33,923 nt of DNA, from positions 1-33,923 of the forward strand of contig JAGLRO010000045.1 in assembly GCA_023136245.1 (NCBI GenBank), given 5' to 3'. The notes under the pieces were generated by a model. The model was given only the letters and a program-made list of their open reading frames with translations, was not told where the DNA came from and did not search any database. This document shows, one piece after another, positions 4,572-25,751 of the stretch. The position numbers were made by a program, and so were the translations under genes. Positions within the stretch are counted from its first letter, which is position 1, and each line of letters begins with the position of its first letter. This DNA is from Candidatus Heimdallarchaeota archaeon (GTDB taxonomy: Archaea; Asgardarchaeota; Heimdallarchaeia; Heimdallarchaeales; Heimdallarchaeaceae).

Positions 4572-4601
4572 AATAACAGTATGTTGTTTTTAGAAAGAAC
4601 G

Positions 4602-5132
4602 ATGACAAGCTACAAGTATACTTTCAAGATTCTCTTACTAGGCGATGGTGCTGTTGGAAAAACAAGTCTAGTTCAGAGATTTATTCATAATAAATTTCAA
4701 GCTGGATATCTTATGACTATAGGAATGGAGCCCTATTCTCGATTTGAGACAATCAAAGATACTCGGATCTGTTTGCAACTTTGGGATATAGCAGGACAAG
4801 ATCGTTTTGCTTCTATGCGTCAGATATTTTTCAAAGGGAGTCTAGGAGCTCTTGTTACTTATGACATTACTCGTCGTCAATCTTTTGAAAATCTACAAAC
4901 ATGGATTAAAGAAGCTAAAACGGAAAGTCCCAGAATCATGTTGATGCTTGTAGGGAATAAAAATGACCTTGATGATTTGCGAGATGTTTCTACAGAAGAG
5001 GGCAAAAAATATGCTGAAGAATCTGGATGTATCGGATTCATTGAAACATCAGCAAAGACAGGTGACAATGTAGCAGACGCATTCTTAGTCATGGGTGAAG
5101 AAATTCTCAATGGAATAGAAACCAGACTATAG
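4602..5132 (+). CDS. Ras/Rab-like small GTPase
   Basis: G1 GDGAVGKTSL, G3 WDIAGQDRF, G4 NKND, G5 ETSAK. ATG 4602 preferred over ATG 4581 because a TATA-like tttataaa at ~4562-4569 would place the TSS near 4590. No C-terminal prenylation Cys. Confidence 0.95.
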   Translation: MTSYKYTFKILLLGDGAVGKTSLVQRFIHNKFQAGYLMTIGMEPYSRFETIKDTRICLQLWDIAGQDRFASMRQIFFKGSLGALVTYDITRRQSFENLQTWIKEAKTESPRIMLMLVGNKNDLDDLRDVSTEEGKKYAEESGCIGFIETSAKTGDNVADAFLVMGEEILNGIETRL

Positions 5133-5899: not shown

Positions 5900-6376
5900 A
5901 TGAGTTCAGGGAAACTGGTGGTTCAGCTTCATAATTTTAGTAGTGTAAATCTTTGCAGAGAATTTGTGAAAATAGCTCTGGGAGTAGGAGCTAGAGACAT
6001 AATATTCTCAAAAGCAGTAGGGGCTGGAGCAACTACAGGAGTTCCAGTTGCACAAAAAATAGCTCACTCAAAACAAGCAAATCTACTTTATTTGCAGGAT
6101 TTAACAGATACAATAGAACTGTTAGCGCCTGATGAAATATATCTATTCATCAAGAGACCATTTTCGAAGACAGTGTTTGATCCTGATAAAATAGCAAAAT
6201 CATATAACGAAGGAAAAACAATACTTCTAGTATTTGGAGGAGCAGAACCAGGATTGACAAAAAAAGAACTAGATAAGGGAATACCTGTGTATTTTGACAA
6301 AATAAATGAAATAGGGTGCTTAGGAGAAATAACTCTAGCACTATATCTGATGAGAAAAATTATAGAAAGAAACTAG
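5900..6376 (+). CDS. SPOUT-superfamily RNA methyltransferase-like protein (COG4080-like, often annotated 'RecB-family nuclease' in archaea)
   Basis: 158 aa; VQLHNFSSVNLCREFVKIAL start, LLVFGGAEPGLTKKEL and IGCLGEITLALYL resemble SPOUT motifs. Confidence 0.62.
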   Translation: MSSGKLVVQLHNFSSVNLCREFVKIALGVGARDIIFSKAVGAGATTGVPVAQKIAHSKQANLLYLQDLTDTIELLAPDEIYLFIKRPFSKTVFDPDKIAKSYNEGKTILLVFGGAEPGLTKKELDKGIPVYFDKINEIGCLGEITLALYLMRKIIERN

Positions 6377-6909
6377 AAAAGTTCATCTTCAGAAACCATC
6401 AGACGAACAAGATTACTGAAAGCTTTTTCAGTATTAGTACCATCTAAAGCAGAAGTAAAAAGAAACTCAGATTGTTTGTATTTACTGCACAAATCTTTCA
6501 AATCTTGCTCAGTGATTTTGAGATCTTTGAGATCACATTTGTTAGCAAGAAAGATGATAGGTTGGTCACCAACTTCTTTAGTGAAAGATTCAACCCAAGA
6601 AGGGAGATTCTCAAAAGTGGTTAAGTTAGAAGCATCACAAACGGCAAGAGCGCCTTTACTGCCAAAGAAATATTTACTGCGAATCTGTTTGAAAACGTCT
6701 TGACCACCGATATCCCAAATAGCTAATGTTACTATGTTGTGTAGATACTCTACTTCTTTTTTCATTATTGTTGTTCCCAATGTTATCTGATACGATGGAT
6801 CGAATAGATTTGTCACATATCTCCTTACTAGTGATGTTTTTCCTACTCTTGCATCTCCTATCAGAACTATTTTGTTCGTTATATGTAACTTCCTTGACAC
6901 TTCACTCAC
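6373..6909 (-). CDS. Ras/Rab-like small GTPase
   Basis: G1 GDARVGKTSLV, G3 WDIGGQDVF, G4 NKCD, G5 TSALDG; GTG start. Shares the palindromic CTAG stop with the convergent upstream gene. Confidence 0.94.
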   Translation of the reverse strand: MSEVSRKLHITNKIVLIGDARVGKTSLVRRYVTNLFDPSYQITLGTTIMKKEVEYLHNIVTLAIWDIGGQDVFKQIRSKYFFGSKGALAVCDASNLTTFENLPSWVESFTKEVGDQPIIFLANKCDLKDLKITEQDLKDLCSKYKQSEFLFTSALDGTNTEKAFSNLVRLMVSEDELF

Positions 6910-7859: not shown

Positions 7860-10193
7860 TTATGGTAGAACAGAAAAATCAAGATTCATATCCTTCAAAA
7901 GTGAAACATATTTTCTTCCTGCTTCGGAATAGAGAGCCGTTCCATTTATTTGTTTGATTCTTATCTTTCTTTGTGCTTCTTCTTTCGTTTGAGTTACATA
8001 TTCTTGTATAGCACTAAAGATAAACATCAATGTGTGTGAATCATTGAATTCAGGTAAGATTTCTATGTTGTTTACATAAGTCACTTTTTCTTGTTTCTTG
8101 AAATGAAGTGCTGCAGCAGGTTCCCCATTCAAGAGTATTAATTCCGCAAAATCTGTTGGTAAGGATTTCAAGAAGAACTGTCTTATTTTGAATCTCTTCA
8201 ATAGAAAGTTCCTGTATAGAATCAATAGAGGATCATTTCTTGGCAAATATGTCATGATTACTTGATCAATGTCCTCCTTTTGATAAATAAATGCAACAGT
8301 CGATTTTTCTACATCTTTTGACGTGAATTGAACATCTTTCTCTTCCTCAATAAATCTCCCAGACCTTACTCCTTTAGATGCGATCAACTCTTTTAGATAA
8401 ACTTCAACTTGTGTGTTTGATAAACCAGTTATATTCGCAATTTGATTGATTGTCAGAGGTAGGTTAGTTGACAGGATACGATTGATTATTTCTACCCATG
8501 CTTGTTTCTGAGTATCTATACGCTTTACTTTAATATTTCGTAAAAATTTAGACTTCGACAGCCAAATGGCTTGATTTGATATTGATTTAGATTGAATAAT
8601 TTCATGAGCATTTTCCAAACGAAGTAATGCAGAAAGCAGAACTCTGTCAGAGAGTTTCAATGATTTTCTTAGTTGTTCAAAACTTACCCTTTCCTTTTGC
8701 TTAACTAGATTCAAAATTCTCTCTTCTAGAACACCTAAATGCCTAGAGGGGCTCAATTTAGAGTAAGTTAAATAATCTTCAGCTGTAATGTAACCTCTTG
8801 TAAAAGCGCCAAATTTACCAATAACAATCTGTCTGTCAATAATCATTTGATTGATCATCTGTTGCCTTCCCTGTCTTACTCTTATCATCAAGGAATTAAG
8901 AGGAAGGGGAATACCTAAGGATGATAAACCATGTAAAATCTCAGCTTTATTATCATATTGTCTCTTCTTTTGCAAGAACTGAGATGTGAGTAAGTAAGGA
9001 AAAATCTGATTCCATGAGATTAGATTCTGACTTGTTTCTGTTCCTGAAAGTCGCGAAATGTGGTAAACAAGACCAGCTGATCGTTTTGAGTACCCTCTTT
9101 GGGTCATAATGTTAGCGATTTCTACAGATTGTTTTTCAATGAGCTCAGATTGTAATTGTGGAAAAACAAGAATTTTCCCTTTGTTTTCTGAAAAACCTTG
9201 TATATTTCTTCGTATTTCTTCCTCTAGATTTGAATATTCATTGGTTTTTCTTAGATTAATAATGTGAAGATTATCTCCTTTAATTTTATAATCAAATGAA
9301 CATACAGGTTTTCCTGAAACAATAACAAGATCCTTTTGAATATCTTCTAATAGCATAAAATCTGCTGATGCCCAATACTCAGCATAAGGATCATTTGAGG
9401 GTATAATCGTAATTTCCTTCTTCTTATCTTGTGAATCGTGCTCTAGAAAATTCTGCAAATAATCCAATTCATCAGAAGAAAGAAAAGCTTCATAACTAGA
9501 ATTCTCAATGAAATGTCCTCTGATTATTTTCTTGTTTTCATACAGTTCTATGATACTTGTACTAACCCTGCCACCTGATAATTTCAACATATTAGTTATT
9601 TGAGGGACTGTAATTGGACCAAAACTCATAATCGTACGAAGAATCAATTCGGTTACAGCTAATGATTTACTCATAGTATCAGAATCTATTATTAAATTAG
9701 TGCTATATATTGTCCAATTTGTTCCATCATAAAACATGAAAACCTGAAAATTTGTTCTTAGTTCTGCTAAGATATCCATTACTTCATCTTTGGATAATCC
9801 AAAATGTTCTATTATCTTCAAACGAGTAGCTGAACCTTCATCATTTAAAAAATCAAGAACTTTCTTTGTATTCTGGTTCTTATATTCAAATTCATCTTTT
9901 AACAAACTGAAATAGTAATAAGCGAGAATCTCTTTTCCAACATAGACTAGCTTTCCTTCTTTAAATGGAGCTTGAACTAAATGCTTATTCTTGACCAAAG
10001 AAGGTATTAATGAAGCTGAGAACGTCCTCATTCTTGTGAAAAGAGATTCAGGATCTTGAAATTGTCCTATGTTATTAATCAGTGAAATCGCATGACCATA
10101 ATTTATTCCCTTATACTTCTGAATCAAACCTTGTTTCTCTGCAACATAGAGAGCTAATTGTTCAAGATTTAAGGTTACATGTTCTACTGCCAT
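7860..10193 (-). CDS. AlkZ/YcaQ-like or Lhr-CTD-like tandem winged-helix protein (putative DNA glycosylase-related)
   Basis: 777 aa; N-terminus AEKQGLIQKYKGINYGHAISLINNIGQFQDPESLFTRMRTFSASL resembles the AlkZ/HTH_42 N-terminus with a QxQ motif (Q44-F-Q46). Two winged-helix plus beta-barrel-like modules (RGHFIE...IIPSNDPYAEYW and SGRFIE...YLPRNDPLLILY). Confidence 0.6.
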   Translation of the reverse strand: MAVEHVTLNLEQLALYVAEKQGLIQKYKGINYGHAISLINNIGQFQDPESLFTRMRTFSASLIPSLVKNKHLVQAPFKEGKLVYVGKEILAYYYFSLLKDEFEYKNQNTKKVLDFLNDEGSATRLKIIEHFGLSKDEVMDILAELRTNFQVFMFYDGTNWTIYSTNLIIDSDTMSKSLAVTELILRTIMSFGPITVPQITNMLKLSGGRVSTSIIELYENKKIIRGHFIENSSYEAFLSSDELDYLQNFLEHDSQDKKKEITIIPSNDPYAEYWASADFMLLEDIQKDLVIVSGKPVCSFDYKIKGDNLHIINLRKTNEYSNLEEEIRRNIQGFSENKGKILVFPQLQSELIEKQSVEIANIMTQRGYSKRSAGLVYHISRLSGTETSQNLISWNQIFPYLLTSQFLQKKRQYDNKAEILHGLSSLGIPLPLNSLMIRVRQGRQQMINQMIIDRQIVIGKFGAFTRGYITAEDYLTYSKLSPSRHLGVLEERILNLVKQKERVSFEQLRKSLKLSDRVLLSALLRLENAHEIIQSKSISNQAIWLSKSKFLRNIKVKRIDTQKQAWVEIINRILSTNLPLTINQIANITGLSNTQVEVYLKELIASKGVRSGRFIEEEKDVQFTSKDVEKSTVAFIYQKEDIDQVIMTYLPRNDPLLILYRNFLLKRFKIRQFFLKSLPTDFAELILLNGEPAAALHFKKQEKVTYVNNIEILPEFNDSHTLMFIFSAIQEYVTQTKEEAQRKIRIKQINGTALYSEAGRKYVSLLKDMNLDFSVLP

Positions 10194-13100
10194 TTATTTC
10201 ACCAGTGATTGGACAGCTATTCCGTTTATTCTTTCTATTATGAGCGAATCAGTATCAGTAGTATAGAATTTAGGTATGGTTTCGAGTGCATTTATTACAT
10301 AGTTGAAAACGACTTCAGATTGAACCCAAGGAGCCAATACAAGGTTGTTAACCGTTGTTCGTCTCTGATTAATCTCCTTTACTTTGCATTGTGCAGCTAT
10401 TCTTTGATTAATCAAGATATTGTAGTTATCTTCAGATATGTCAAAACGTTCTGGATAATCTTCTCTTAATATTAGATTTGCAATATCATTCGGATGTAAA
10501 ATGTAAAACAATTTACTATCTTCTTTTGAAACTATTCCTAATTTTGTTTCGTCCCTCTTTTCGAACATCTCTAGGTCGTTATAATTTTCCTTGGTTATGT
10601 AATAGAAATGAATATCATTTTCTACAAATCTACCAACAAGAATCTTTTCTTCTTCAATTAAATCAGCTAAAATTTCTCTGATTTTAATCTTTGATAGGAT
10701 ACCTGGAATTGAACTTCTTTCCGCAATCTGAGCTTCAGTGGATACTCCCAAACTATTGACTATGTCATAAATATATCTAGTTCTCACTGATGAAATTTCT
10801 TCATCAAATTCCGGTATGAATGAACTTGAATCCCAATACTCTTGTGGTTCATTTAGATTATTGATTGACTTAACACTAATCATCATATTTGTTTCTAGTG
10901 CAGATAAAGCTGATTTGAGTGAAACGCTAGCTCCTTCCCATTGATTTGTTAGTTCTTGAAAATTAATATACCCTTTTTTGATCTTATTGTGAACTTCTTG
11001 AGTTTCTGGTAAGATTTTCTTTCTTCTTCTTAATCCACTTTTCCTATATCTTGCTGAAGTTAAAGAATACACTTTTCCTCCCTGATATATTATTCTTCTT
11101 TCTTCAAGGAGTTTGTTGATTATAAACACTACAATAACAGGCATTGTATCAGGAAATCTTGAAAGTATCTCTTCGAAACTGAGAAAACCAAAATGGTTTA
11201 CAAGCTGAACTAATCTCTCTTCATTTAAAGCTTCACTCTCTCTTCTTAACCACAACTTATCCAGAACGAATTTGTCTATAATTTTCTTGGGGAAGACTCT
11301 GGTTATTGATTCACCACCGACTAATGTATCTTTAATAAGTCTGAAACCAGTCTTAATGAAAGTGTCCTTGATCAAGGAATTTGTCTTAGATAAAACTGAT
11401 CTACCATTAATGTCTTCGATTTGGAGACTCAGCACACGGTGAATTTTTCGTGTATACCTTACAAGTTCTGCTGCGATTTTTTGTAAAATGAGAGTGTGAT
11501 AAATCACTTCATCATCTAATTTCAGGTCGTAGATCTGAAGATATTGACCCTTGTATAATTTGTATTCTAATGAACCAATTACTTCTCCATCCAGTAATAT
11601 TGGATCTATCAAACCCTCTCCATATACATCTCTTAGATGAATCCTTAAACCAAGTTTTGTGAATGGATCATCTCGAGCAAGAATAACTACTTTTTCATCT
11701 TCTTTGAGTGCAGTGTTTATAAATTCATGTTTTAATTTTGTAATTTCTTTGAATCTTTCAAATGTCATATAATAATTGGTTTCTCGTTCAGTTAATTTTC
11801 TTTCAATTATCTTATCTTTCTCTAGGAGAATCTTGATGATTTTCTCAATGTCACTGTACTTGAATCCTAATGTGTGTGTTAGTTCCACTAGTGATACTGG
11901 ACCTAATGATTCTATAAAATTTCGTAATAAGAATTGTTGACTTTGAGAATAGGTAGGAAGATTCCCAGAAGGAAGATATCTTGAAGAAAGATCATAAACA
12001 TTAGGAATAAACTGCCGAGGTAGATATGAATCAAATGAAAAAGATTTTCTAATAATATGTAAGGATTTATCCAAAATCATTAAACTCTCTTGAGCGACAT
12101 CATCATCTATTTCTGTAAATTCTTTTATTTCTCGTTTAGTTAAAGGTCCATATTTTCTTAAAGAAGCAAGTATTTTCTCTTCCACACGAGAGAGTTGGAA
12201 ACTATCCTTGTAAGCAACATAATAATATGGAAACATTGTTCTACTTACATATCCTAAACGATTATGACTCAATCTTCCTTGAATCAATTCATTCTGATTT
12301 ATTAGTTCTCTAATCCAATCAACATCAAAATTTTGGATACGTATTGCAAGTGAATTTAAATCTTCGATTGACCCAAAAGTATTGAGAATATTCAGTACAT
12401 TTTCTTTACCTTCAAGTTTTTGTTTGAAATAGTAATCAACAGTAAAATAGTAATGAATATAGTTCAATTCTTCAGGTGTTAGAATGATTGATTCAGGTTT
12501 TCTGCTACTGAGATTTCTTAGTAATTCTCTATCTTCTAACCTGATATATTGTGGTTCAATGCTTCCTTCTATAATCTGACCCTTCAATATTCGATTTCTT
12601 TGCTCTAATTCAAAAAGAGCTCTTGTAACCTTGTCCTCTTCAATTTTCAAATAATCAATTATTTGAATAGATGTTGAAGGACCATGAACCTTTAGATATC
12701 GTAAAACTATTTTCTTTAAACATTCCTCAGGATCAAGTCTTTTAGCTTGACTAATTAAATTGGATGGAACAAGATCTGCTGTTAAAATGTACTTCCAAGT
12801 ATTTCTTCCTCCTATAATCTCGAAATTCGATCGAGAAATAATCATCGTTTGTTCTAGTTTTTCTAAATGTGATTTGATTGGTTCAGCAGTTTCATTGAGA
12901 TCTTCAGCAATTTCTTTTGATGAAAGAGGATGTTTCTTCTGAAGTAAGCTAAGAATTTTATCATCTAATTCTGTCGTTTCCAAAGTTTTCGCATATATGT
13001 TCCAGAAAACCGGATAATCATTAATAGGGATTGCTCTTCGTTCTCCTCTTCCAATGTTTACATCAAGAATTTCTCCATTATTATGGAGAGCAAGAGCCCA

Positions 13101-15920
13101 TGCTCTAATTTGTTTGGGATCACTAATACATAAATGATAGATACTAGGAGGGACGCTTTCGATGGTTCTTATGGGAGTAAGGACTCTTATTGCACTCCTC
13201 AACTGTTTGAGAGAAGAGATAAGTAAGCTTTCATTTTTATAACTTCTGTTATCAAATATCCGTTTTACAAGCTCTCTATCGAACAATATTTCTTTTGTTC
13301 CTTCTTTGCCAAATACCTTTGCAAGAACTTGTTGATGCAATTCTCTGAGTAAAGCACTCCTATCTGATATTTGAACAATGTCTGCTACTCCAAGAAGTAC
13401 TATTCCGTGTGCGAATGGACTAGGAATGTCAGAGAGTGGAGTTATGTGATATTCAAATTCTCCTTGTTGGAGTTTGCGAATTACAGCTTTAGCATTTTCC
13501 AAATCCATATAATCTCGTAAAATCTCTCTATAGGTTTCTTTGATCACACAGAAAGCATCTTGTTCTCTTATTGTAGTGAATATTCTCCTTGCATAGAGAG
13601 ACTGTCTTGATAGAGGAACACTTCGATTTGCACTTCGTCGTAGTACCATCAGTGCTCTACTGGCTACGTGTCTAAATCTAGTTTGAAATAGCTCTGTGTT
13701 TATAATCGCTTTTTTGAGTATATTTTCTAGATTTTCAGAAGTTACTAGTTCAGGTATAAGAGTGGTGTCAATTATTTTGTCAATTGGTAGCATCAATAAG
13801 AAACCATTATCATTAACTGCAGAAGCAACATCTGCATCAATTGTTTGTCCAATTTCGAAAGCAAAAAACCTTGACAATGCATCATTTACTCTCCTACCAT
13901 AAAGTGCATGAAAAACTATATTCATTCTTCCTTGTGGATCAACAAAGGATTCTATTAGTAATCGTTTATCACTTGGTACCATATTTAAAACAGCTAGTTG
14001 CTCTTTGATATATTCAATAATCGTTTTAGCGATTACATCATCACACTGAAATGACCTTTCTATCCATTCTTTTATTCCTTCTTCATCATCATCTTGGATT
14101 TTCTGAGCAACAACTTCTATAAATCTCCCAATCTGTTGAGAAAGCTCAAAGGATCTTGGAAGTTCTTCTCCAACCCAATTAGGTATGGTTGGTCTTCGAC
14201 CAAAAGCTTCTGATACTACGACTCTTGAACCTACTGTTCTCTTGAATTGATAAGTATGACTTCCCAAAACGAAAATATCTCCAGGTGATAATCTTTCAAC
14301 AAATTTCTCTGAAAGAAACCCTATACGAGTTCGGTAAGTTTCTAGTTCAACTCTAAAATCAGCACTTTCTGGAATTGTTCCTATATTTGTATAGAAGATT
14401 AACCTAGTTCCTTTCTTTTTTCCAAATGAATTCTCTTTATGATCATACCAGATTTTTCTGTATACTTTTCTTTCCTCAACCTCTAAATTGTATCCTCCAA
14501 GATATTCGAGAACATTGATATAGTCTACGAAACTCAAATCTCGATAATTGTATGATCTTTTTATCATACTATAAGCATCATCAACATTCCATCTCTTTGC
14601 TAAAGATATACCAACAATGTACTGAGCTAAGACATCTAAACAATTGTTTGGTATTTGCACCTTATCGATATCATGGCTATATGTACTCTTTGTCAGCACA
14701 GAACATTCGATAGCATCGTCTCTGTCTGTTACTATTAGACGCCCTTTAGCTAATCGGTCAAGGGAATGACCACTTCTACCGACTCTTTGTAAGTATTTAG
14801 CTACTGTTTTTGGAGAACCTATTTGGGAGACTAGCTCTACACTTCCAATATCAATACCTAATTCTAAAGACGTTGAAGTAACAGCTGCAATAAGTTCGTT
14901 GTTTTTCAGCTTATCTTCTACATCCAATCTTATCTCCCTTGAAAGACTAGAATGATGAACTGCAATCGCTGGAGCATACTCATCCCCAAGAAATTCTTTT
15001 AACTTGAAAGCAACACTTTCTGCTCCTTTACGTGTATTCGTAAAGATGATTGAAGTTTCATGATCTAGAACAAGATCAGATAATATAGAGTAAATTCCTT
15101 CTTGTACCATAACATAGGGAGTATGAAGAAGATCTGAGACAGGGCTTCTTACAACAAGATCTAGTTTTCTTTGAGGAGGTAGGTTAGCTATGAAACAATC
15201 GTTTTCTTTTCCTTTTTCATTTCTCCCAACAAGAAATCTTGCAATTTCCTCTATAGGTGCTTGCGTTGCAGATAAACCTATTCTTGTAAAATTATTCTCT
15301 GCAATCTCTGACTGCAAATATTCTAAGAATAATGAAAGTAGAGCTCCTCTCTTATTCGAACTTACTTCATGAATCTCATCTAAGACCACCCACCTGACGC
15401 TTTTCAGATGTAGAGAAAACTTAGGAGAAGTTAGAATCAACCCTAAACTTTCAGGTGTGGTTATGAGTATATGTGGAGGTGTTTTTAGCATTCGAGATCT
15501 TTCAGCTTGTGTTGTATCACCTGTCCTTACAGCAACCCTAATTTTCGGAGTCACTATATTATTGGATGCTGCTAAATCCTGTATCCCTTGTAACGGTTCT
15601 TCCAAATTTTTTCTTATATCGTTACCAAGTGCTTTAAGTGGTGAGATGTATAATATGTATATTTGATCCTTCAAACTACCTTTCTTTGATTCAATAAAAA
15701 GCTCATTTATCGCAGCAAGGAATGCAGCAAAGGTTTTACCAGAACCTGTAGAACTGAAAACTAAAGTGTTTTTTTTCTTATGAATTGAAGGAATCGCATA
15801 TAGTTGAGGTTGAGTGAACCCTCTAGCAAATCGACTAGTAAACCAATCCTTTATCTCTTTAGCAAGAAAAGAAAATATTTCTTGTGTGGTAGCTGGTTGA
15901 TCAAGATAATGAAGGGTCAT
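10194..15920 (-). CDS. lhr: Lhr-type superfamily 2 helicase with long C-terminal winged-helix/AlkZ-like extension
   Basis: 1908 aa; Walker A SSTGSGKTFAAFLA, DEIH box VVLDEIHEVSSNKRG, STSLELGIDIGSVELVSQIGSPKTVAKYLQRVGRSGH; C-terminal half has many winged-helix segments and beta-barrel-like segments (ARDDPFTKLGLRIHLRD; HPNDIANLILRED). Confidence 0.95.
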   Translation of the reverse strand: MTLHYLDQPATTQEIFSFLAKEIKDWFTSRFARGFTQPQLYAIPSIHKKKNTLVFSSTGSGKTFAAFLAAINELFIESKKGSLKDQIYILYISPLKALGNDIRKNLEEPLQGIQDLAASNNIVTPKIRVAVRTGDTTQAERSRMLKTPPHILITTPESLGLILTSPKFSLHLKSVRWVVLDEIHEVSSNKRGALLSLFLEYLQSEIAENNFTRIGLSATQAPIEEIARFLVGRNEKGKENDCFIANLPPQRKLDLVVRSPVSDLLHTPYVMVQEGIYSILSDLVLDHETSIIFTNTRKGAESVAFKLKEFLGDEYAPAIAVHHSSLSREIRLDVEDKLKNNELIAAVTSTSLELGIDIGSVELVSQIGSPKTVAKYLQRVGRSGHSLDRLAKGRLIVTDRDDAIECSVLTKSTYSHDIDKVQIPNNCLDVLAQYIVGISLAKRWNVDDAYSMIKRSYNYRDLSFVDYINVLEYLGGYNLEVEERKVYRKIWYDHKENSFGKKKGTRLIFYTNIGTIPESADFRVELETYRTRIGFLSEKFVERLSPGDIFVLGSHTYQFKRTVGSRVVVSEAFGRRPTIPNWVGEELPRSFELSQQIGRFIEVVAQKIQDDDEEGIKEWIERSFQCDDVIAKTIIEYIKEQLAVLNMVPSDKRLLIESFVDPQGRMNIVFHALYGRRVNDALSRFFAFEIGQTIDADVASAVNDNGFLLMLPIDKIIDTTLIPELVTSENLENILKKAIINTELFQTRFRHVASRALMVLRRSANRSVPLSRQSLYARRIFTTIREQDAFCVIKETYREILRDYMDLENAKAVIRKLQQGEFEYHITPLSDIPSPFAHGIVLLGVADIVQISDRSALLRELHQQVLAKVFGKEGTKEILFDRELVKRIFDNRSYKNESLLISSLKQLRSAIRVLTPIRTIESVPPSIYHLCISDPKQIRAWALALHNNGEILDVNIGRGERRAIPINDYPVFWNIYAKTLETTELDDKILSLLQKKHPLSSKEIAEDLNETAEPIKSHLEKLEQTMIISRSNFEIIGGRNTWKYILTADLVPSNLISQAKRLDPEECLKKIVLRYLKVHGPSTSIQIIDYLKIEEDKVTRALFELEQRNRILKGQIIEGSIEPQYIRLEDRELLRNLSSRKPESIILTPEELNYIHYYFTVDYYFKQKLEGKENVLNILNTFGSIEDLNSLAIRIQNFDVDWIRELINQNELIQGRLSHNRLGYVSRTMFPYYYVAYKDSFQLSRVEEKILASLRKYGPLTKREIKEFTEIDDDVAQESLMILDKSLHIIRKSFSFDSYLPRQFIPNVYDLSSRYLPSGNLPTYSQSQQFLLRNFIESLGPVSLVELTHTLGFKYSDIEKIIKILLEKDKIIERKLTERETNYYMTFERFKEITKLKHEFINTALKEDEKVVILARDDPFTKLGLRIHLRDVYGEGLIDPILLDGEVIGSLEYKLYKGQYLQIYDLKLDDEVIYHTLILQKIAAELVRYTRKIHRVLSLQIEDINGRSVLSKTNSLIKDTFIKTGFRLIKDTLVGGESITRVFPKKIIDKFVLDKLWLRRESEALNEERLVQLVNHFGFLSFEEILSRFPDTMPVIVVFIINKLLEERRIIYQGGKVYSLTSARYRKSGLRRRKKILPETQEVHNKIKKGYINFQELTNQWEGASVSLKSALSALETNMMISVKSINNLNEPQEYWDSSSFIPEFDEEISSVRTRYIYDIVNSLGVSTEAQIAERSSIPGILSKIKIREILADLIEEEKILVGRFVENDIHFYYITKENYNDLEMFEKRDETKLGIVSKEDSKLFYILHPNDIANLILREDYPERFDISEDNYNILINQRIAAQCKVKEINQRRTTVNNLVLAPWVQSEVVFNYVINALETIPKFYTTDTDSLIIERINGIAVQSLVK

Positions 15921-16628: not shown

Positions 16629-17897
16629 ATGAATCACAGCAATAATCCAGATGAATTAGCAAGCGATATTGTGAAAAGATTCCAATATACTACTAGCATG
16701 CTTTATCATTGGATTGAGTCTTTTGGATTAGAAGAAACTTTGAATCTTTTAGAAAACATAAGAAAACCTTTTGATTCTCTATGGGTTCAAGTAAATTCAA
16801 GTCGAATTGATTTTGATTCATTAATAGATATATTCGAAGAAATGGAATTTGAGGTAAAAAAACATCCTTGGTTCGAAGACTTTATTGTTGTAAATGTAAA
16901 GAAACAAAAAATTGAAGGTGATGTACTAGAGCTACCTGTAGTAAAAGTAGATCGAGAATCAGCTTCAAATATTTCATTGGGAAAAGATGTAAAAACAGCC
17001 TCTATTACAAGCCACAATAGCTTTTTGCAAGGGGACAAAACAAGAATTATGGATTTTACTGGAAATATCATCGCACTAGGGAATGCTTTAGTTAACAGTA
17101 AAGAGATTTCTTCATTAACTCAGAGAGCGGTAGTAAGAGTAACAGATTCTTTAGGATATGTTCCACCTATAACAGAGCTGAAGGAATATAGAAAAGGATA
17201 TTTCAGCATACTTACACCTCCTCAAACAATAGGAGTAAAATCGCTGAACTTAGGTTCCAGAGATAACATTTTAGTTATATCTGGAGACAGAGGAGAAGTA
17301 GCAGGGTACATAGCTGAGTTAACCAAACACAAAAATCCAATAACTGTCGTTGCTAGAAGTCAAATGCAGCTCAAAGCGATCACAAAACAAATAGAAAGAA
17401 TAAAAACTAAAGCAATCCGAGTGATTCATTCTTCTTTTCTTGCATTTTTGAACGAAAAAAACGATATAAGATATACTTCTGTATATCTTGAACCCCAAAA
17501 CTCACGAACAGCTGTGATACCAACTTTTGCATCGAATCTTAGTTTACGTCGATTACAAAAGATGTCAAATAGACAAATCAAGACTATAACACAACTTTAT
17601 CGAAGCCTTCATACTGAATCATCAATATCCTATGTAACACATTCTCTTGATTATCTTGAGAATGAAACAGTGTTTCAGAATATTCTTGAGAAAGCCTATT
17701 ACACCAGTCAAGATTTTCCTGATGACCTAAGAAAGCTTCAAGAAAGGAAAATATTATCTTCAAGATTTTCACATATGTCAAAATTACTTGATTTAGCTGA
17801 GGAACAAGAATTATCATCCATTTATCTTGATCCCATGAAAATCAAGAATATTGGGGGATTTATTGCTAAATTTAGATTTAAACATAAATCAGCTTGA
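16629..17897 (+). CDS. PUA domain/NSUN (Nop2/Sun) RNA m5C methyltransferase homologue, predicted catalytically inactive
   Basis: N-terminus MLYHWIESFGLEETLNLLENIRKPFDSLWVQVN...EVKKHPWFEDFIVV, PUA-like middle segment, Rossmann-like NILVISGDRGEVAGYIAELTKHKNPITVVARS, LEPQNS at the DAPCSG position, YVTHSLDYLENETVFQNIL at the YSTCSxxxxENExVV position, GGFIAKFRFK at the C-terminus. No cysteine in 422 aa. Confidence 0.8.
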   Translation: MNHSNNPDELASDIVKRFQYTTSMLYHWIESFGLEETLNLLENIRKPFDSLWVQVNSSRIDFDSLIDIFEEMEFEVKKHPWFEDFIVVNVKKQKIEGDVLELPVVKVDRESASNISLGKDVKTASITSHNSFLQGDKTRIMDFTGNIIALGNALVNSKEISSLTQRAVVRVTDSLGYVPPITELKEYRKGYFSILTPPQTIGVKSLNLGSRDNILVISGDRGEVAGYIAELTKHKNPITVVARSQMQLKAITKQIERIKTKAIRVIHSSFLAFLNEKNDIRYTSVYLEPQNSRTAVIPTFASNLSLRRLQKMSNRQIKTITQLYRSLHTESSISYVTHSLDYLENETVFQNILEKAYYTSQDFPDDLRKLQERKILSSRFSHMSKLLDLAEEQELSSIYLDPMKIKNIGGFIAKFRFKHKSA

Positions 17898-17898
17898 A

Positions 17899-18465
17899 TT
17901 ACATAAGATGTGTATCAAGTTCATTTACTAACCAGATGAATGCTTCTTTTATTCCCTTCCCATGTAGAATACTTGTATCGAAAACAGCAAAAGTGCGATC
18001 TTTCAAATCCAGATGCAAACCCAACATTTGTATAAGAAGTGGAGCTTCAACTGCTCCTGGAAGATCTTGTTTATTCGCCATAATTAGCGTAGGAACATTT
18101 TCCATATATGGGTTGTTAAATACATGAGTCTTCAGAACATCTCTTGCTTCAGGGAGTCGTTCAATGTCCGCTGCATCTATAACGAAAATGACAGCACTAC
18201 ATCCTGGATAATGTGCTTCCCATAAGAAACGAAAATGTGACTGACCAGCAACATCAATTGCAGTAATGGTCCAACCTTCGAATTCAAATGACTCGATGTT
18301 CTGTCCGATAGTAGGTGTAAGGTTTTCTGCAAATCTACCAAATCTCATAAAACGAGTCAATGTGGTTTTACCAGCAGCATCTAAACCTAAAATTAGTATC
18401 TTAGCCTTTTGCTCTCTCTTTAACTTGGCTCTCAACCATGATGAAAATGACCCGAACATGCTCAT
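17899..18465 (-). CDS. Arf/Arl-like small GTPase
   Basis: MSMFGSFSSWLRAKLKREQKAKILILGLDAAGKTTLTRF, TPTIGQNIESFEFEGWTITAIDVAGQSHFRFLWEAHYPG, ANKQDLPGA. Confidence 0.95.
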   Translation of the reverse strand: MSMFGSFSSWLRAKLKREQKAKILILGLDAAGKTTLTRFMRFGRFAENLTPTIGQNIESFEFEGWTITAIDVAGQSHFRFLWEAHYPGCSAVIFVIDAADIERLPEARDVLKTHVFNNPYMENVPTLIMANKQDLPGAVEAPLLIQMLGLHLDLKDRTFAVFDTSILHGKGIKEAFIWLVNELDTHLM

Positions 18466-25037: not shown

Positions 25038-25751
25038 ATGATGCTCAATCATATAAGAGATATTGAGAAATCTGAAGAATTAAAACAAATTCTACAGAAT
25101 TTTTATGGGGAACATATCTCGATTCAAGAATTTATTGAATCTATGATTGTATCAAAAAACGCAAAAATTAGCTTAATTCAGCATAAAGAGAAAAATATCG
25201 GATATATAGTTTGGTTGATTGAAAAGGAGAAAGAGGAAGGAGAAGAAGGAGGAAAAATCATAAAAGCTTTTGTAATCGATGATATGGTTTTTTTGCCAAA
25301 ATACCAAAAGATGGAGAATGCTAAAGAACTAATTTCTGAATTGGATAAACATGCAAAAGAACAAGGATGCACTTTGATTGAAATAACTCTTCCAAGCCCA
25401 TCTTTCTGGTTAATTCCAATCTTCATTCAAGAGGGAGATTATTCATCTTCAGTTCTGCGGGTAAGTAAGGAATTACAGAAGAAGACTGAATTTGTTCAAA
25501 TCTATAATGTAGTCATCAAGGGATTGAAACCTGAATTGACCGAAGTAATGGTTTCAAGAAATGAGGAATATCATCTAGAAATTATTGAAGAACCAATGGA
25601 TTACAGAAGAATAATTGAAGAGGGGTATAATCCTGAAATTGTTAGTATGATCTTCTATGTTGAGGATGAAAAAATGGAGGAGAAACTAAATCAGATAAAC
25701 GAAATTGCAGAATGGCAAGAATATTCATTTTCTCTAGTAAAGAACCTTTAA
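25038..25751 (+). CDS. GNAT-like N-acetyltransferase domain protein
   Basis: KISLIQHKEKNIGYIVWLI...IKAFVIDDMVFLPKYQKMENAKELISELDKHAKEQGCTLIEITL resembles GNAT beta4-beta5 and motif A region. Confidence 0.6.
   Translation: MMLNHIRDIEKSEELKQILQNFYGEHISIQEFIESMIVSKNAKISLIQHKEKNIGYIVWLIEKEKEEGEEGGKIIKAFVIDDMVFLPKYQKMENAKELISELDKHAKEQGCTLIEITLPSPSFWLIPIFIQEGDYSSSVLRVSKELQKKTEFVQIYNVVIKGLKPELTEVMVSRNEEYHLEIIEEPMDYRRIIEEGYNPEIVSMIFYVEDEKMEEKLNQINEIAEWQEYSFSLVKNL

Follow-up and report, generated by a model that had tools for sequence, protein, structure and literature searches.

Does a protein that has the layout of an NSUN-family RNA m5C methyltransferase but not a single cysteine among its 422 residues still work as an enzyme, or has it been kept for another purpose? 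The question is raised by a gene located at positions 16629–17897 on the forward strand of a 33,923-nucleotide contig of Candidatus Heimdallarchaeota archaeon (the window, by which we mean this whole stretch of DNA). Domain-only annotation would label such Cys-less genes m5C methyltransferases, and no NSUN-family pseudoenzyme was found described in the literature searched. The reading that we favor, with a probability of roughly 65%, is that the protein represents an old Asgard pseudo-methyltransferase that probably still binds RNA, has a repurposed pocket, and acts independently of the active PUA-containing NSUNs (PUA-NSUNs).

Domain Architecture

The open reading frame, Pfam and phmmer searches, and an alignment with PhNSun6 agree on an NSUN6-type protein, i.e., one in which an RRM-like segment, a PUA domain, and a Methyltr_RsmB-F core are all found in one chain. 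The PUA domain (PF01472; residues 104–173, positions 16938–17147; E = 5.8e-6) and the Rossmann methyltransferase core (PF01189, Methyltr_RsmB-F; residues 206–356, positions 17244–17696; E = 1.3e-6) score over the Pfam cut-offs. The RRM/ferredoxin-like RNA-recognition segment (residues 27–89, positions 16707–16895) matches the RsmF/B ferredoxin-like family PF22458 under its cut-off (E = 6e-4) and aligns with the RRM of PhNSun6. At the C-terminus, GGFIAKFRFK (17853–17882) corresponds to the strand that reads FIAKL in active NSUNs.

The closest solved relative is PhNSun6 (PH1991) from Pyrococcus horikoshii (PDB 5zvd), matched over residues 27–355 (phmmer E = 1.4e-21), so that the homology extends over the full RRM-like, PUA, and Rossmann layout, as the preliminary description had read it. 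The family profile yields E = 1.9e-23, and a profile-profile comparison with active PUA-NSUNs yields 99.9% over 345 columns (E = 3.8e-32). The fold assignment rests on these profiles, as a single-sequence AlphaFold model of the window protein was unusable (pLDDT 33).

Loss of Catalytic and SAM-Binding Residues

In NSUN enzymes, the cysteine of motif VI attacks the substrate, whereas that of motif IV releases it (PMC6409601). Both are replaced in the window protein, at the very positions given in the preliminary description. Motif VI, YVTHSLDYLENETVF, begins at residue 335 and contains the tripeptide THS (17637–17645); within the former motif as a whole (YVTHSLDYLENE, 17631–17666), His338 (codon 17640–17642) aligns with the nucleophile Cys327 of PhNSun6. 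The former motif IV, LEPQNS (residues 287–292, positions 17487–17504; LEPQNSRT to 17510), has Asn291 in place of the release Cys280, and its Asn-Ser-Arg is fixed in the window's family. Since NSUN chemistry uses both cysteines, m5C catalysis is unexpected here, and we infer that the window protein would be unable to make m5C.

The SAM pocket is affected as well. Among its PhNSun6 residues (Asp207, G213-G214-K215, Asp233, and Asp277; SAM contacts listed in PMC6393295), only G213 is kept, as Gly222; Lys215, Asp233, and Asp277 are replaced by Val224, Ala242, and Glu288, respectively, and the AAPGGK loop is lost, the former motif I reading VISGDRGEVA (residues 216–225, positions 17274–17303). The window protein does share with PhNSun6 the ENE of motif VI and the threonine preceding the nucleophile position.

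The nucleophile cysteine is absent from all 38 Cys-less proteins and present in all 53 active PUA-NSUNs examined; the release cysteine is absent from 35 of the 38 and again present in 53/53. The active Asgard proteins (e.g., L046 and L054), from the same phylum and with the same domain order, differ in retaining both cysteines and the SAM motifs in all 53 cases, with aspartate at the D233 position in 52/53 and at the D277 position in 53/53; the acidic SAM-ribose contact is gone throughout the window's order. The old nucleophile site is occupied by His in the window's family (f1) and the other families of its order (f2–f4), by Asn or Ser in f7, a family of the same class, and by Pro, Glu, Ile, or Thr in f21–f24. 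The complete lack of cysteine, correctly noted for the window copy, is not a family trait: most orthologues have one to four cysteines elsewhere, and only very few others have none.

Several Cys-less proteins deserve separate mention. Three of them (L027, L028, and L092) retain the motif IV cysteine although the nucleophile and the SAM motifs are lost; a DNMT-like use of this cysteine was considered and rejected given the lost SAM motifs. Four f7 copies (L029, L060, L062, and L077) look intermediate. Two of these, L060 and L062, retain the SAM-ribose aspartate (in AID), L060 also having a VLDLSVGHG loop, and by these motifs they may bind SAM without either cysteine. A SAM-dependent N-methyltransferase activity in f7, considered because of an NPPS motif, was rejected for L029 and L031, which have no ribose-binding acid.

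Distribution in Asgard Genomes

The Cys-less gene was found in 52 Asgard genomes, including that of the window, from three separate groups of families: 23/24 genomes of f1, 13/13 of f2–f4, 9/9 of f7, and seven genomes of f21, f23, and f24. In three genomes (G026, G172, and G174) the gene piece ends at a contig end, leaving motif VI outside the part read. No PUA-NSUN was found in f5 and f6, also of the window's class, at the search sensitivity used. An Asgard affiliation agrees with ESCRT-II EAP30, which scored above the cut-off in 21/21 genomes searched vs. 0/14 controls, and with the presence of several small GTPases in the window. Archaeal NSUN6 homologues had been reported from hyperthermophiles only (PMC6393295); the present survey extends NSUN6-type proteins to many Asgard lineages.

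That the window copy is a pseudogene decaying in one genome only, or an artifact of assembly, has a negligible probability. Nothing in the window copy points to it, and the one sign of erosion comes from the orthologue L006 in G018, where an in-frame TAA precedes the C-terminal end, due to either an assembly error or a recent truncation. Against this stand the occurrence in 52 genomes, full-length reading frames, and dN/dS values for close pairs of 0.04–0.29, similar to 0.06–0.19 for the active proteins (two counting methods). The loss is thus fixed among orthologues rather than confined to one decaying mutant with Cys-bearing relatives, and dN/dS is well below 1: the Cys-less family is under purifying selection. 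In these respects, the survey bears out the proposed NSUN/PUA paralogue that is conserved but catalytically dead.

The active PUA-NSUN has a different distribution, being present in 21/24 genomes of f1, 0/13 of f2–f4, and 1/9 of f7. Its near-constant absence outside f1 speaks against an obligate partnership with the Cys-less protein. Searches of the assembly to which the window belongs, 83% complete, did not recover it; this assembly does contain two other NSUNs with intact cysteines, one RsmB-like and one MJ0026-like. Two observations concern the active copies themselves. G024, from the window's genus, carries two of them (L050 and L051), and L083 from G060, the sole one found in f7, sits on a long branch of its own, apart from those of f1, and was possibly acquired by transfer.

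Other systems offer examples of conserved RNA methyltransferase paralogues in which the fold outlived catalysis, namely, Trm6 (with Trm61) and METTL14 (with METTL3). These belong to other methyltransferase families and form dimers with an active partner, whereas the active paralogue of the Cys-less NSUN is often missing. By analogy, the Cys-less protein could serve as a subunit without catalysis of its own, guiding either a second NSUN or some other modification enzyme. Candidate partners exist, as the window's genome has its two intact NSUNs and nearly all relatives contain related NSUN cores, but the gene clusters of 21 loci showed no shared NSUN neighbor, and the nearest active paralogue is absent from most non-f1 genomes with the dead gene. 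We therefore regard a subunit role as quite improbable.

Origin of the Cys-Less Family

Trees were built without the three motifs, so that the cysteine sites could not drive the result. In the unrooted tree, all 37 Cys-less rows fall on one side of a single branch (98/88). When the tree is rooted with non-PUA NSUNs and includes PhNSun6, they form a clade (95/90) nested among the active PUA-NSUNs, although this tree has a single non-Asgard PUA outgroup and the branches of the window's family are long; the active Asgard proteins remain outside the clade. Leaving out groups in turn gave 87/86, 97/94, and 100/97 for three pairs of groups. We conclude from the profiles and trees that the Cys-less proteins descend from active archaeal NSUN6-type enzymes. 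A recent duplication of the active copy within f1 was considered as a source and is disfavored, by a test of grouping the dead and active f1 proteins (AU p = 0.03).

Whether catalysis was lost once or several times is a separate matter. Several independent losses, with Cys-less genes as their parallel products, would agree with the different residues found at the cysteine sites of different groups. When analyzed alone, f1 and f7 do not group together (a tree constrained to unite the two is nevertheless not rejected, with AU p = 0.41), and a grouping of f7 Cys-less proteins with the one active f7 copy is not rejected either (AU p = 0.36). On the other hand, the full trees recover one clade with the motif columns removed, derivation from the active copy of f1 is disfavored, and Ser339 and Asp341 are shared by all the groups. 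Parallel losses are therefore unlikely, and one ancient loss is the best reading of these data, albeit not a proven one.

Selection on the Former Active Site

The preliminary description called SAM motif I degraded. This holds in so far as most SAM contacts are gone, but the term is misleading, as conservation is higher in the former motifs than elsewhere in the protein. The 28 proteins from the window's order, about 22% identical between families, share only 12 invariant positions. Seven of these are among the 30 residues that make up the former motifs I, IV, and VI (Fisher p = 3e-6): Asp220, Gly222, His338, Ser339, Asp341, Glu344, and Asn345. The enzyme already had Gly222, Glu344, and Asn345, while Asp220, His338, Ser339, and Asp341 are new. 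His occupies the nucleophile position in 28/28 proteins of the order. Ser339 and Asp341 are common to all 38 Cys-less proteins, whereas the active relatives have Thr at the Ser339 site in 52/53 cases and never Asp at the Asp341 site (n = 53). A decaying site is expected to rank with the least conserved parts of a protein; the concentration of invariant residues in the former motifs hence suggests that the pocket was rebuilt rather than eroded, and its strict preservation probably reflects a new use.

Such constraint might also indicate a new enzyme, with the conserved Asp/His/Ser/Asp set as the binding site for a different cofactor or as the center of another RNA reaction. The seven invariant positions, with the histidine retained in the entire order and the Ser/Asp pair in the entire family, speak for such an enzyme. 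However, the residue at the nucleophile site varies by group, leaving no family-wide common chemistry, and RNA contact or folding could equally produce the same constraint. We consider this explanation rather unlikely.

RNA Binding and Possible Function

PhNSun6 methylates C72 of tRNA, its PUA domain reading the CCA end; CCA and N73 are contacted by N98, Y112, and E174, and by Y41, Q107, and S190 (PMC6393295). These contacts are partly kept in the window protein. The counterparts of N98 and E174, Asp108 and Glu183, are invariant in the window's family, and the active Asgard copies also carry Asp at position 98. Tyr112 and Ser190 are not conserved. The first 100 residues have a mean net charge of −8.4 in the window's family vs. 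+0.5 in active proteins, and the PUA domain −1.6 vs. +3.1. The retained PUA and RRM, together with Asp108 and Glu183, suggest RNA binding, perhaps to tRNA ends; the acidic N-terminal half and the lack of counterparts to Tyr112 and Ser190 suggest that this binding is changed or weaker. A plain RNA-binding role for the window protein is plausible.

The favored scenario may be outlined as follows. The ancestor was an archaeal NSUN6-type tRNA m5C72 methyltransferase, from which the RRM-PUA-Rossmann layout was retained. With the loss of the nucleophile cysteine (always) and the release cysteine (nearly always), m5C would no longer be made, and the PUA/RRM half would continue to bind RNA, most likely tRNA acceptor ends. 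The former active site would have been rebuilt around Asp220, Gly222, His338, Ser339, and Asp341, with Glu344 and Asn345 kept, into a pocket that may now hold RNA or a ligand. Within the translation machinery, the protein would serve as a factor that binds tRNA or other RNA, or as one resembling a chaperone. Its action would be independent of the active PUA-NSUN, which is missing from most carrier genomes outside f1; the same absence from most lineages keeping the dead gene argues that the Cys-less protein is not solely a partner of the active one. A bolder version, which we find doubtful, is that the NSUN site was converted once, early in Asgards, into a pocket for a new ligand or chemistry, giving a neofunctionalized factor that replaced the m5C72 methyltransferase in most lineages. 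With an old, constrained pseudoenzyme spread over the closest archaeal relatives of eukaryotes, nature has provided an experiment on the role of an NSUN scaffold without methylation.

Gene Neighborhood

In the window's family, the typical order is an Lhr-like helicase, a GNAT protein, the Cys-less gene, an Arf-like GTPase, Rpb6, L44e, and a succinyl-CoA ligase. Most loci of this family preserve the gene order that places the Cys-less gene next to rpoK (Rpb6) and L44e; small differences concern L115, which is rearranged, and L114, L117, and L118, where the Rpb6 frame is uncalled. In addition, rpoK occurs near the Cys-less gene in two f4 loci.

A zinc-ribbon protein adjoins the Cys-less gene in f3 and f7. 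A GNAT-like protein of about 240 aa adjoins the Cys-less gene or lies near it in f4 (L124, L125, and L126) and f7 (L127–L129), while in f1 it is situated about 7 kb away (25038–25751 in the window). For these shared neighbors (the zinc-ribbon cluster c1 and the GNAT cluster c4), the between-family matches reach no better than 1e-5 to 1e-7, too weak to be taken as proof of orthology.

On the reverse strand of the window, two adjacent genes (7860–10193 and 10194–15920) encode a 777-aa protein and the Lhr-like helicase of 1908 aa. The former clusters with the helicase by similarity and has winged-helix matches, and the pair is kept upstream or downstream of the Cys-less gene in the seven f1 loci examined. 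The 34 kb contain three small GTPase genes, at 4581–5132, 6373–6909, and 17899–18465; the last, of the Arf family (Pfam Arf, 3e-43), is the convergent 3′ neighbor of the Cys-less gene.
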